Source: a virus. From it: a stretch of 23,379 bases of DNA. The notes beneath the pieces are model-generated. The model had not been told where the DNA came from. It worked only from the letters and a program-made list of their open reading frames with translations, and made no database searches. Positions 5,934-19,915 of this stretch are shown here, piece by piece (within the stretch, counting starts at the first letter, position 1; the number at the start of each line of letters is the position of its first letter). The stretch is taken from positions 1 to 23,379 of IMG/VR virus record IMGVR_UViG_3300020710_000036; one strand, 5' to 3'. The position numbers were made by a program, and so were the translations under genes.

Positions 5934-6227
5934 TTAACTACGATAAACCGTATATGGATTTCCTAGACCGCCAGTAAAAACATTGCCACCACTGTATGTA
6001 ATTACATAATTTGCACCACTGGTTGAAACACCAGTAATAATTCCAGTTCCACCAGCAACGGTAATCTTCATACCATTGGTTGGCATACCTGTTTTGAAAT
6101 CGGTTTTCTTTACAGTAGCACTTCGCAAGCTACTGCCATTGGCAACAGCAATAACGCCATTGGTTTGAGCAGTAGTTGTTGAACTGGTGTTATGTGGGCG
6201 CAACAAGCCTTTATGTAAACCAGGCAT
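5934..6227 (-). CDS. Small virion-like protein (97 aa)
   Basis: A 97-aa protein (MPGLHKGLLRPHNTSST...) with Gly/Thr/Ser-rich beta-type sequence: KITVAGGTGIITGVSTSG, NYVITYSGGNVFTGG. There is no signal peptide or membrane segment. The composition matches small capsid-decoration or tail-associated proteins, but no family is recognised. It starts one base into the stop of the preceding minus-strand gene (shared at 6227), so the two are translationally coupled. Confidence 0.6.
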   Translation of the reverse strand: MPGLHKGLLRPHNTSSTTTAQTNGVIAVANGSSLRSATVKKTDFKTGMPTNGMKITVAGGTGIITGVSTSGANYVITYSGGNVFTGGLGNPYTVYRS

Positions 6228-6526
6228 TACTGGCTCTTTAATTCAAGAACGTTGCAAAGACCGCTTGTAGTACTTTGAATTGCAGCTACTTTATCGCCAC
6301 CATTGACAGCGATAAATTCTACACCACCACCTACGATTAGCATACAATTTCCAGTATTGTAAGCAGTAGGATTGGCACCCCAAGCAATATAGGTGTCTGC
6401 ATTTGTTGTAACACGTAGAATACTTGCTACACTACTGAAAGCTGCTGTTGCATTACTGCTGCTACCTGTGGTGATTGTTTGTGCATTTGCTACTGCATAC
6501 GCACCTTTTCTTAAAAGAACTGACAT
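6227..6526 (-). CDS. Small virion-like protein (99 aa)
   Basis: A 99-aa Ala/Thr/Ser-rich protein (MSVLLRKGAYAVANAQTITTGSSS...) predicted to be mainly beta-strand, with the segments YIAWGANPTAYNTGNCMLIVGGG and EFIAVNGGDKVAAI. It looks like a small virion surface or decoration protein, inferred from composition and position only. It is the first gene of the minus-strand structural operon; a GATAAATA late-type promoter lies at 6552-6559 and a GGGGAA ribosome-binding site sits before the ATG. Confidence 0.6.
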   Translation of the reverse strand: MSVLLRKGAYAVANAQTITTGSSSNATAAFSSVASILRVTTNADTYIAWGANPTAYNTGNCMLIVGGGVEFIAVNGGDKVAAIQSTTSGLCNVLELKSQ

Positions 6527-15285: not shown

Positions 15286-15984
15286 ATGTTTTATACAATC
15301 TATAAAATTACTAATAAAATAAATGGCAAATATTATATTGGTAAACACCAAACTACCAATCTAAATGATGGGTATATGGGAAGTGGAAAAAATGTAAAAA
15401 GAGCAATTGCCAAATACGGCATTGAAAATTTTACAAAAGAAATATTACACACCTATGATAATGAAGCAGATATGAATGCTGCTGAAAAAAAATTAGTTGT
15501 TATAAGTGAAGAAACCTACAATTTATGCGAAGGCGGAAAAGGTGGGTTTAGTCATATTAACAAAAATAATCTATCTGTAAAAAATTTAAAAAATCCAAAT
15601 GTTAGAAAAGTTGCCACTAAAAATTCCAATAAAAAAAGAATAGAAAATTTTAATAATAATACAGTGTTAAAAAAACAGTGGGAAGATAATATATCTAATA
15701 GTTTAAAATCTTATTATAAAACACATTCTGGAACTTTTACAGGAAAAAGACACCCAAAGGAAATTGAAAATAGAATTGCTGAAAAGTTAAAAATAACAAA
15801 TAAAGGCAGCGGTAATCCAAATTTTGGAAAATGTTGGATTAAAAATGTAAAAACAAAAGAATATGGAATGATATTAAAATCTGATTTAAATTATTGGATT
15901 TCTCTTGGGTGGGAACTTGGACAAATACGAGAAAATGGTATTCCAGTAAAATTGAAAAATAATCAAGACGGTAAGGCACAGTAA
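15286..15984 (+). CDS. GIY-YIG homing endonuclease (copy 3, 232 aa)
   Basis: MFYTIYKITNKINGKYYIGK is the GIY-YIG core; NDGYMGSGKNVKRAIAKYG and CEGGKGGFSHIN match copies 1 and 2. The C-terminal part has NUMOD3-like motifs (FTGKRHPKEIENRI, GSGNPNFGK) and then a segment KEYGMILKSDLNYWISLGWE that fits a DNA-contacting module. The last codons (GKAQ, stop) are encoded by the first copy of the 81-bp repeat at 15970, so the C-terminus was rebuilt or created at that junction. It sits between tRNA-Pro and the repeat, with late expression expected from 15238. Confidence 0.92.
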   Translation: MFYTIYKITNKINGKYYIGKHQTTNLNDGYMGSGKNVKRAIAKYGIENFTKEILHTYDNEADMNAAEKKLVVISEETYNLCEGGKGGFSHINKNNLSVKNLKNPNVRKVATKNSNKKRIENFNNNTVLKKQWEDNISNSLKSYYKTHSGTFTGKRHPKEIENRIAEKLKITNKGSGNPNFGKCWIKNVKTKEYGMILKSDLNYWISLGWELGQIRENGIPVKLKNNQDGKAQ

Positions 15985-16050
15985 ACAATCCGCAATGGCG
16001 ATGGGATGTGTCACGGTGTGGGCGATAGATGGGGGCTGCACACTGACTTT
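15970..16050 (+). repeat. 81-bp direct repeat, copy 1
   Basis: Identical over 81 bases to 16848-16928. It includes the end of the GIY-YIG ORF and can fold into GTCA-(CG)-GTGTG ... CACAC-TGAC near its 3' end. The following bases (16051-16086) weakly resemble the 5' half of tRNA-Lys that follows copy 2. GC content is above the surroundings, which suggests a structured RNA. Confidence 0.92.
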
Positions 16051-16086
16051 GAAATTTTGGATCGGTTACCGTAGTGGCGAACGGAA

Positions 16087-16752
16087 CTAATCTATATCAA
16101 AGTCTAAGGGTGTCTCGTAACAAGTATGTATTTGCAGCACTTCTTTAACATCACGCCCAATTAATTCAACCCAATTATTTGTGCAATGAATTTGATTGCT
16201 ATTAAAAATTACAGCAGAACCTGCACTATATTCAAAAATACCATCGAGAGTAAGATAATTTGCAACATAGTCTCGGATACGTTCATCATAAGTGTGTGAT
16301 ATATTTTCAAGTTCGCTGATATTATTTTTTCGTTGTTTAGTTTTAATTAATTTATATAGATCATTAGATGCTAACCAATTAAAATAAAGTGAAGTTTTTT
16401 CAAATTTTTCTTTAAAAACAATCGTTTTGCTTTGTGGCAAATCATCTAAGGCTATCACCATTGTATATCTATACAAATGTTCATTGCCATTTGGTTCATC
16501 CATATGTAAATTTAAAGGTTTATATTGTAATTGATAACCGCCATAAGGTTCTTCGTATGGTATTGGAAAATTATTTTTTACTAAACGATCAACAATAGCA
16601 AAACATTCATCTTTATTTGACAAATCTATTCTGGAATTTAATAATTCGCTTTGACTTTTAAATAAATCATATTTTTTATTTAAACTTTGATTAAACCAGT
16701 TTCGCAATTCATTAATTTCTGCTTGAGATAAAATTTTGTTAAACAATTTCAT
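16087..16752 (-). CDS. 2OG-Fe(II) oxygenase-like protein (221 aa)
   Basis: A 221-aa protein with a plausible 2-oxoglutarate/Fe(II) dioxygenase facial triad: HMD at 83-85 (H83, D85) and H189 in SNQIHCTNNW, plus R200/K203 after it as 2OG-binding candidates. The double-stranded beta-helix pattern fits (YTMVIALDD, SAVIFNSNQ, EVLQIHT). Phage members of this group may hydroxylate proteins, nucleotides or surface sugars; the substrate is unknown. The gene is opposite to its neighbours, strongly AT-rich, flanked by the 81-bp direct repeats and has its own late promoter ending 6 bases before its ATG, so it looks like an inserted cassette. Confidence 0.75.
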   Translation of the reverse strand: MKLFNKILSQAEINELRNWFNQSLNKKYDLFKSQSELLNSRIDLSNKDECFAIVDRLVKNNFPIPYEEPYGGYQLQYKPLNLHMDEPNGNEHLYRYTMVIALDDLPQSKTIVFKEKFEKTSLYFNWLASNDLYKLIKTKQRKNNISELENISHTYDERIRDYVANYLTLDGIFEYSAGSAVIFNSNQIHCTNNWVELIGRDVKEVLQIHTCYETPLDFDID

Positions 16753-16765: not shown

Positions 16766-16847
16766 TATTATAAATCTGATATAACAAATATTGCAATTTG
16801 GGTAGGGTGTGTTGGCAAAAAAATGCTACCTATATAAAAACTAAGAT

Positions 16848-16928
16848 GGTAAGGCACAGTAAACAATCCGCAATGGCGATGGGATGTGTCACGGTGTGGG
16901 CGATAGATGGGGGCTGCACACTGACTTT
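16848..16928 (+). repeat. 81-bp direct repeat, copy 2
   Basis: Second identical copy of 15970-16050, 878 bases downstream, ending 10 bases before tRNA-Lys(TTT). Between the oxygenase promoter and this copy (16766-16847) I see no gene. Confidence 0.92.
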
Positions 16929-16938
16929 TTGAATTTTA

Positions 16939-17014
16939 GAACGCTTAACTCAGTTGGTAGAGTACGGGTCTTTTAAACCTGTTGTCGTGGGTTCGAACCC
17001 CACAGCGTTCACCA
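16939..17014 (+). tRNA. tRNA-Lys(TTT)
   Basis: 76 nt with CCA. Acceptor GAACGCT/AGCGTTC perfect, anticodon arm CGGGT-CTTTTAA-ACCTG (TTT), T-arm GTGGG-TTCGAAC-CCCAC. Confidence 0.94.
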
Positions 17015-19027: not shown

Positions 19028-19107
19028 TGCATAACTATTTATCTAGTTTTTATTTTACAAGTATGGTAAACTTGCTGCAAGTTTACCAGTTTAGGAACAG
19101 TTATGCA
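19028..19107 (+). promoter_or_regulatory. Nested hairpins around the start of the second HNH gene
   Basis: TGCATAACT (19028-19036) pairs with AGTTATGCA (19099-19107), which contains the ATG at 19103. Inside lies a perfect 10-bp hairpin, GGTAAACTTG-CTG-CAAGTTTACC (19065-19087). RNA entering from upstream would hide the start codon. No plus-strand TATAAATA is seen between the arms. Confidence 0.65.
19036..19043 (-). promoter_or_regulatory. Late-type promoter of membrane operon
   Basis: The minus strand reads GATAAATA, the same variant as at 6552, 45 bases before the ATG at 18991. Confidence 0.5.
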
Positions 19108-19564
19108 CAGAAAAGATATATTAGAAAGAAAAGAAGAAATATTAAATTGGATATCCAATCATGAACCAAAGGTATATATTTGTAAACAATTAAAATGCAA
19201 ACCCGATACGCTTGAAACATATTTAAAAAAAATGAATATCTCATATGTTGGCAATCAAGGCAGCAAAGGAAAAAAAATTGATTGGAAATATGTAGATGCG
19301 TTAACTTATGCTAAAAAAGATAATGTATCAGCGCATAAGTTAAGAATTAAATTATTAAGAGATAAAATAAAAATACATTGTTGTGAAGTATGCAATACAA
19401 GTGAATGGATGGGATGCCCGATACCATTGGAATTAGATCACATTGATGGCAATCATTATAATAATGATTTAACCAATTTAAGAATAATATGCCCAAATTG
19501 TCATGCTCAAACTGATACTCACGCAGGAAAAAATAGAAATAAATTGACAAGGATAACTAACTAG
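19103..19564 (+). CDS. HNH homing endonuclease (153 aa)
   Basis: The N-terminal 60 residues look like a helix-turn-helix (VYICKQLKCKPDTLETYLKK). The nuclease core follows: CCEVCN, then LELDHIDGNHYNNDLTNLRI and CPNCHAQT, a classic HNH with zinc-binding CxxC pairs. It is unlike the HNH protein at 17281 in domain order (DNA-binding region first), so the two probably arrived separately. It lies between the membrane operon and the tRNA-Leu(TAG) block; its last codons overlap the promoter of that block. Confidence 0.92.
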   Translation: MHRKDILERKEEILNWISNHEPKVYICKQLKCKPDTLETYLKKMNISYVGNQGSKGKKIDWKYVDALTYAKKDNVSAHKLRIKLLRDKIKIHCCEVCNTSEWMGCPIPLELDHIDGNHYNNDLTNLRIICPNCHAQTDTHAGKNRNKLTRITN

Positions 19565-19580: not shown

Positions 19581-19656
19581 GCGTCTGTAGTCCAATGGTA
19601 GAGACACAAGGTTTAGGTTCTTGGTGGTGGGAGTTCGAATCTCTTCAGACGCACCA
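19581..19656 (+). tRNA. tRNA with Leu anticodon (TAG), short variable loop
   Basis: 76 nt with CCA. Acceptor GCGTCTG/CAGACGC perfect, anticodon arm CAAGG-TTTAGGT-TCTTG (TAG), 5-nt variable region, T-arm GGGAG-TTCGAAT-CTCTT. D-arm AGTCCAATGGTAGAG is close to that of the Leu(CAA) gene at 12658. Confidence 0.82.
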
Positions 19657-19665
19657 ATATAATAT

Positions 19666-19826
19666 GCTGCTTTAGCTCAGTTGGTAGAGCAACGCACTAA
19701 TCCGTAGCGGGTAACGCTACCAACCAAGTAGCAATGCTTGGTTGCTTGTGGGTATGAAGAGCCTAAAGCTCCCAATGCCGAGAGGTAATGCGTAGGTCGT
19801 CAGTTCGAATCCGACAAGCAGCACCA
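19666..19826 (+). tRNA. Interrupted tRNA, probably Thr(GGT), 85-nt insert in anticodon loop
   Basis: Acceptor GCTGCTT/AAGCAGC, D-arm GCTCAGTTGGTAGAGC, anticodon stem ACGCA (19692-19696) / TGCGT (19789-19793), T-loop TTCGAAT and CCA are all normal, but 92 nt lie in the anticodon loop. Removing 19699-19783 leaves the loop CTGGTAA, anticodon GGT. The insert folds into GTAGCG/CGCTAC (19704-19720), AACCAAG/CTTGGTT (19722-19743) and GAGC/GCTC (19759-19771). Exact junctions cannot be fixed, and no group I core motifs are seen. Confidence 0.75.
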
Positions 19827-19831
19827 TTATT

Positions 19832-19915
19832 GGAGGTATGCGAGCAAGGTGCTCAAACGGTCTTGAAAACCGTGCCACCGCAAGGTTGATGGTTCGATTC
19901 CTTGTACCTCCGCCA
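19832..19915 (+). tRNA. tRNA-Ser(TGA)
   Basis: 84 nt, class II, with CCA. Acceptor GGAGGTA/TACCTCC perfect, anticodon arm ACGGT-CTTGAAA-ACCGT (TGA), long variable arm, discriminator G. The T-stem has mismatches. Confidence 0.9.

Follow-up and report, generated by a model that had tools for sequence, protein, structure and literature searches.

The anticodon loop of a phage tRNA-Thr gene was found to hold an insert of 85 nt, which is judged with good confidence to be an RNA-level intron and a member of an undescribed, compact three-hairpin GAGCCUAAAGCU family (~85-89 nt) residing in the anticodon loops of jumbo-phage tRNAs. Excision at the RNA level is regarded as highly probable, a view derived from sequence comparison, since the exons are intact, a 7-nt loop results when the insert is removed, and inserts in different tRNA species share the fold.

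An interrupted tRNA-Thr gene in a phage tRNA cluster

The window, i.e., the whole stretch of 23,379 nt that was analysed, corresponds to an IMG/VR record of 23.4 kb. Tail-sheath and tail-tube genes are added by G001, a 43-kb contig from the same population that is nearly identical to the window. The closest counterparts of its sheath belong to three phages of 440-490 kb, namely Sinorhizobium phage Phosso, Agrobacterium phage Atu_ph07 and Salicola phage SCTP-2, so that the window is probably a fragment of a giant freshwater jumbo phage, a T4-related myovirus. Default ARAGORN identified 17 tRNA genes within the window and gave no call at 19666-19826, where the interrupted gene was added by the Rfam tRNA model RF00005 (53.5 bits, 19666-19823, spanning the insert), a score that falls among those obtained for the uninterrupted tRNAs of the window. 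With introns allowed, ARAGORN reported tRNA-Thr [19666,19826] with an 85-nt intron and the anticodon AGT. As default tRNA finders miss interrupted genes, phage tRNA inventories are incomplete. Elsewhere in the window, a 105-bp direct repeat (93%; 15965-16068 and 16843-16947) flanks a minus-strand ORF (16087-16752), whereby its second copy extends into the start of a tRNA-Lys gene.

The tRNA-Thr gene is complete apart from the additional 85 nt in its anticodon loop. As originally predicted, all of its arms pair once the insert is left out (acceptor 7, D 4, anticodon 5, T 5 base pairs), and U8, A14, G18G19, U33, T54, U55, C56 and A58 are as expected. Two further IMG/VR contigs of the same population carry the insert unchanged, so that an assembly error is unlikely. 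The exact insert is known from this one phage population in IMG/VR, and a repeat search revealed no second copy in the window or its relatives. The features of the locus and of the cultured phages discussed below are compiled in Table 1.

Table 1. Positions of the interrupted tRNA-Thr gene, its insert and neighbours (window coordinates), and of interrupted tRNAs in cultured phages
Feature	Location	Strand	Basis or remark
Free-standing HNH endonuclease ORF	19103..19564	+	phrog_14736 E 5e-29, phrog_10822 E 2e-28; PF13392 below cut-off
tRNA-Leu (TAG), 5' neighbour	19581..19656	+	ARAGORN
tRNA-Thr 5' half: acceptor strand, D arm, anticodon 5' strand ACGCA, loop CTA	19666..19699	+	Rfam, ARAGORN
85-nt insert (mini-intron), preferred placement 34/35	19700..19784	+	ARAGORN with introns allowed; syntenic intact tRNA-Thr AGT
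Hairpin H1, GTAGCG-GGTAA-CGCTAC	19704..19720	+	TCCGTRGCGGGTAA common to L246 and L249
Hairpin H2, CAACCAAGTA-GCAA-TGCTTGGTTG	19721..19744	+	variable sequence, stem retained in homologues
Domain H3: base CTT/GAG, stem GGTAT/ATGCC, internal loop GAA/CCA, hairpin GAGC-CTAAA-GCTC, tail GAGAG	19745..19784	+
Invariant GAGCCTAAAGCT, family-diagnostic	19759..19770	+	7/8 IMG/VR contigs with GAGCNTAAAGCT and T-loop spacing are anticodon-loop inserts
tRNA-Thr 3' half: GTAA, anticodon 3' strand TGCGT, variable loop, T arm, acceptor, ACCA	19785..19826	+	Rfam, ARAGORN
tRNA-Ser (TGA), 3' neighbour	19832..19915	+	ARAGORN
Class A tRNA-Asn and tRNA-Lys, Atu_ph07	NC_042013.1 323905-324023 and 68159-68280	(-)	45-48-nt inserts, 35/36
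Class A tRNA-Asn, SCTP-2	MF360958.1 298729-298847	+	45-48-nt T-arm minihelix insert, 35/36

Position of the insert within the loop

The original prediction placed the insert at 19699-19783 (33/34), removal of which yields the loop CUGGUAA with the anticodon GGU; removal of 19700-19784 yields CUAGUAA with AGU. Both loops comprise 7 nt and both anticodons specify Thr. The homologue in contig L246, a tRNA-Ala, likewise allows either cut with its amino acid unchanged, and since both cuts keep the amino acid in either gene, isotype alone does not discriminate between them. Seven IMG/VR contigs outside the window's population retain the tRNA order Leu(TAG)-Thr-Ser(TGA)-Gly(TCC), and their tRNA-Thr genes, which fall into two sequence types and represent all other relatives recovered with the locus, are uninterrupted with the loop TTAGTAA. 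When placed at 19700-19784, the window insert has G as its last base, in agreement with the end of the homologue in L246. Because of the relatives' loop and of this shared terminal G, the placement 34/35 with the anticodon AGT is favoured, and the insert would thus probably be removed one base later than first assumed: the reading as a tRNA-Thr with an 85-nt anticodon-loop insert holds, with GGT and its coordinates being the less favoured placement. For the family as a whole, the insertion site is most likely located between nucleotides 34 and 35. To our knowledge, a tRNA-Thr with the anticodon AGT is unusual in bacteria and their phages; the relatives L074, L056 and L078-L084 all possess one.

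A family of three-hairpin inserts

The insert had been described as consisting of three hairpins, and this fold was corroborated by comparison with shuffled sequences (z -4.1 for 19699-19783, -4.6 for 19700-19784). A first lead to homologues came from a survey of giant phages for interrupted tRNAs, which revealed that the window insert shares 12 identical nt, GAGCCTAAAGCT, with an insert of 35 nt within a tRNA-Asn of the 359-kb contig L134. IMG/VR was then scanned for GAGCNTAAAGCT at a fixed distance from the T-loop, yielding eight contigs: two of the window's population, L134, the new contigs L245, L246, L248 and L249, and one chance match, the other seven all being anticodon-loop inserts. 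The four new contigs carry inserts of ~85-89 nt within anticodon loops of other tRNA species, and three of them exceed 300 kb (L245, 333 kb; L248, 561 kb; L249, 415 kb), whereas the insert of L134 represents a minimal form. The L246 insert matches that of the window across nearly its whole length (TCCGTRGCGGGTAACGCTAYCAAC...GTTGTGGGT...AAGAGCCTAAAGCT). Applied to the genomes of bacteria and archaea (84,980 species), the same scan pattern gave three matches, none of them in a tRNA. An exact-end pattern (ACTAATCC...GAGAGGTAA) occurred in 42 IMG/VR contigs, among which only those of the window's population placed it in a tRNA; BLAST with the insert returned nothing usable and no plasmid match, its five 20-mers in T4-like coding regions being judged chance.

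When delimited by 34/35-type boundaries, the five full-length inserts have a length of ~85-89 nt and three hairpins each (z -4.6, -4.1, -4.5, -3.9 and -3.3). Across the family, the loop of H1 contains UAA, H2 is strong but variable, and H3 is a compound stem whose terminal invariant hairpin GAGC-CUAAA-GCU(C/U) sits on a covarying stem of 4-5 bp. Strands pair more often with their own partner than with that of another member (H2, 38/41 vs 85/160; H1, 23/26 vs 54/100; H3b, 24/24 vs 88/120), whereby these counts, taken from hand-read helices of minimum-energy folds in a small alignment, serve as supporting evidence and not as a formal covariation test. For H3, where the aligner displaced the stem by one column, hand-read pairs take the place of a covariance model. 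The compensatory changes argue for selection acting on the RNA fold. In all members of which both ends are present, removal of the insert results in a canonical 7-nt loop and a plausible anticodon, with the isotypes of L245 and L248 assigned from the restored anticodon only; L248 has one anticodon-stem mismatch and L249 is truncated on its 5' side. The window insert combines the H3 hairpin, the size of 85-89 nt and the anticodon-loop site that define the three-hairpin family. Among the options first considered, a new class of tRNA insert is therefore the one supported, as the same size, position and fold recur in other giant-phage tRNAs. In two contigs, L253 (561 kb) and L254 (415 kb), a possible further type of tRNA insert was observed (TGGAGGG...GG(T)TC(C)T...GTTGAAG/GTGAAG, ~30-35 nt).

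Two further families of short phage tRNA inserts

Two other families were identified, which are referred to as class A and class B. Class A inserts (45-50 nt) reside at 35/36 in tRNA-Asn, tRNA-Lys and tRNA-Arg of Atu_ph07 (two tRNAs), SCTP-2 and IMG/VR phages. They are built from a closing stem and a T-arm-like hairpin (minihelix), usually with AAAAG ahead of the 3' exon, and their two helices show 26 cells with two-sided changes as compared to 8.5 in shuffles. Owing to the minihelix, excision by RNase P and RNase Z was considered, which fits poorly as the 3' boundary lies ~5 nt past the stem. A class A covariance model (R1) gave no match inside 19699-19784 (E<=10, filters off). The records NC_042013.1 and MF360958.1 hold no annotated feature over the interrupted tRNAs. 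For Atu_ph07, 33 tRNAs covering every amino acid but Asn and Thr were reported (PMC6102473); a tRNA-Asn is present yet interrupted, and this sole Asn tRNA found there carries a class A insert. Moreover, at NC_042013.1 335108-335213 (-) a tRNA-like gene with a ~33-nt anticodon-loop hairpin is located 83 bp from an HNH gene, and the UCA "opal suppressor" reported for Atu_ph07 might be a misreading of this gene. One class A-bearing contig (L221) also gave an Rfam permuted tmRNA match of 71 bits at 6035-6290 (-).

Class B inserts (40-64 nt) locate to the anticodon stem at 28/29 or 29/30, many of them with a hairpin and CNGCAA, and leave perfect tRNAs after removal. They were found in at least ~45 IMG/VR loci between L100 and L219 (e.g., L116, L131, L144, L163 and L188) and in Xanthomonas phage XbC2 (OP292654.1 307294-307415); a second subset of loci ends in GGTTACTT-like sequence. 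The class B covariance model (R2) returned nothing significant for the window insert, which occupies the loop and not the stem.

Is the insert removed?

Three readings compete with that of an intron. The insert may never be removed, the tRNA body serving instead as a scaffold that stabilises a small, non-decoding three-hairpin RNA (sponge, decoy or regulator). The very stable fold and the lack of a match to any known splicing element agree with this idea, and folding and end processing would depend on intact arms in either case. A scaffold, however, requires neither U33 and A37 nor an anticodon fitting the tRNA body, yet every two-ended member regains a canonical loop and a plausible anticodon; use of an interrupted tRNA is further suggested by Atu_ph07, for which the authors reported no tRNA-Asn (PMC6102473) and whose only Asn tRNA found holds an insert of another family. 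Retention of the insert is hence considered unlikely.

A mobile hairpin element might also have inactivated the tRNA gene, and DNA mobility at this locus is indeed likely: an HNH-bearing block (19043-19544), directly upstream of tRNA-Leu, is unique to this lineage, the relatives joining exactly across it. Inactivation had been among the options raised at the outset, with an uninterrupted gene in homologues beside a clearly decayed one here as the expected sign. Uninterrupted syntenic genes do exist, but no arm of the window gene has decayed, several tRNA species have this type of insert at an identical site, and its compensatory changes point to a fold under selection, rendering a pseudogene quite improbable.

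Least plausible, to the point of being very improbable, is a group I intron reduced to the extreme, which might be completed in trans: group I introns classically reside in tRNA anticodon loops (in cyanobacterial tRNA-Leu at 34/35), the insert has a terminal G at the preferred placement and U precedes the 5' site in L245, L246 and L248 (A34 in the window), but inserts of 85-89 nt, with a minimal form of 35 nt, offer no place for P3, P7 and the G-binding site, and no Rfam group I match was obtained up to E=10. These results agree with the expectation that the insert is too small for a typical group I intron and lacks its core motifs, and the proposal of an extremely reduced intron found no support, as cmscan (E<=10) of the window locus and L245 revealed no Rfam intron family and no P3-P8 core. 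Group II introns and the known small ribozymes likewise gave no Rfam match; the insert starts with AUCC or AAUCC and not with GUGYG. Its minimum-energy and centroid folds contain no bulge-helix-bulge spanning both splice sites. The idea of a nested tRNA was dismissed, since two weak overlapping matches (25.3 and 16.6 bits) result from real exon fragments and chance acceptor pairing.

Proposed excision, ligation and spread

For the insert as an intron, the following course may be envisaged. The insert-bearing precursor (161 nt) would be transcribed together with the tRNA cluster, whereby the three hairpins would stack on the anticodon stem. Next, the insert would be cut out, and the tRNA halves, which the acceptor, D and T arms would keep in contact, would be joined to yield a 76-nt tRNA-Thr(AGU). 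The cut could possibly be made by an endonuclease that recognises H3 and stems from the host or the phage; cutting by the insert RNA itself is considered slightly less likely. In the window and L245, Rfam revealed no ribozyme or endonuclease motif of known type accounting for the cut. Resealing of the anticodon loop by a phage Rnl1/Rnl2-type ligase is plausible, if somewhat short of an even chance. The textbook substrate of a T4-Rnl1-type ligase is a cut anticodon loop, and such a ligase (PF09511) was identified in all three carriers above 300 kb as well as in Phosso, Atu_ph07, SCTP-2 and most large class A carriers searched. As it also occurs in jumbo phages with no detected insert (Phosso, RaK2), its presence is compatible with this role and not diagnostic of it. 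The interrupted tRNA-Lys of Atu_ph07 has an RNA-ligase-like gene (gp086, phrog_24030) at a distance of ~1 kb.

With regard to spread, similarity between the window and its relatives is lost across the Leu, Thr and Ser genes, downstream of the lineage-specific HNH block, and returns at 19909, a sequence pattern that resembles co-conversion next to a homing endonuclease. Interrupted tRNAs have HNH genes as neighbours in the window, L246, L245 and Atu_ph07 (tRNA-Lys), and the proteins of the window HNH gene and Atu_ph07 gp090 match the same PHROGs (phrog_10822 and phrog_14736). That neighbouring HNH endonucleases helped the insert to spread is a tentative suggestion, as HNH genes are common in phage tRNA clusters.

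There is about an even chance that the three-hairpin inserts constitute a new minimal splicing element, being either the smallest intron known to splice or cleave itself or a substrate for an unrecognised protein-based phage or bacterial pathway. The latter would combine a dedicated endonuclease with a T4-type anticodon-loop ligase and hence represent tRNA-intron machinery outside archaea and eukaryotes. As far as is known, bacteria have self-splicing tRNA introns only. A second job is suggested for the T4-type RNA ligases of giant phages. The question of removal becomes directly testable with families whose splice points are defined and whose folds are conserved, class A having cultured examples (Atu_ph07, SCTP-2).

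Comparison with known systems

With the bacterial anticodon-loop group I introns the window insert shares its site and, if placed at 34/35, the terminal G, its 5' exon then ending in A; these introns are usually 200 nt or longer and contain a P3-P8 core, which the insert lacks. Archaeal and eukaryal bulge-helix-bulge introns are likewise small tRNA inserts, taken out by cutting and ligation; their canonical site, however, is 37/38, whereas the window insert shows no evident bulge-helix-bulge and belongs to a bacterial virus. Class A inserts reside in jumbo-phage anticodon loops as well, usually end in AG past the closing stem and show strong covariation, but differ by the site 35/36, the T-arm-like hairpin and the lack of GAGCCUAAAGCU. 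Class B inserts also leave a perfect phage tRNA upon removal, yet interrupt the anticodon stem with a single hairpin and CNGCAA.

The first phage tRNA introns were reported by Devoto et al. 2019 for Lak megaphages and were called "enigmatic", one of them being tRNA-like (PMC6784885). Subsequent reports followed (PMC8346664, PMC13037316), including a 2026 survey of tRNA introns in 262 alternative-code jumbo phage genomes (PMC13037316). According to the accessible parts of these papers, the Lak introns too are short interruptions of phage tRNAs, conserved between phages, one of them residing in a tRNA-Thr and being absent from some phages (PMC6784885). As a short phage-tRNA insert outside the known classes, the window insert resembles them; the available text of PMC6784885 and PMC13037316 states neither a class nor a mechanism. 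The three-hairpin GAGCCUAAAGCU family does not appear in the accessible text of the Lak papers, from which it is set apart by description and not by intron sequences. Phage tRNA introns as such are thus already known, and among open-licence papers, with Lak compared by description, what appears to be new is the three-hairpin family, along with its boundaries and the range of phages that carry it.
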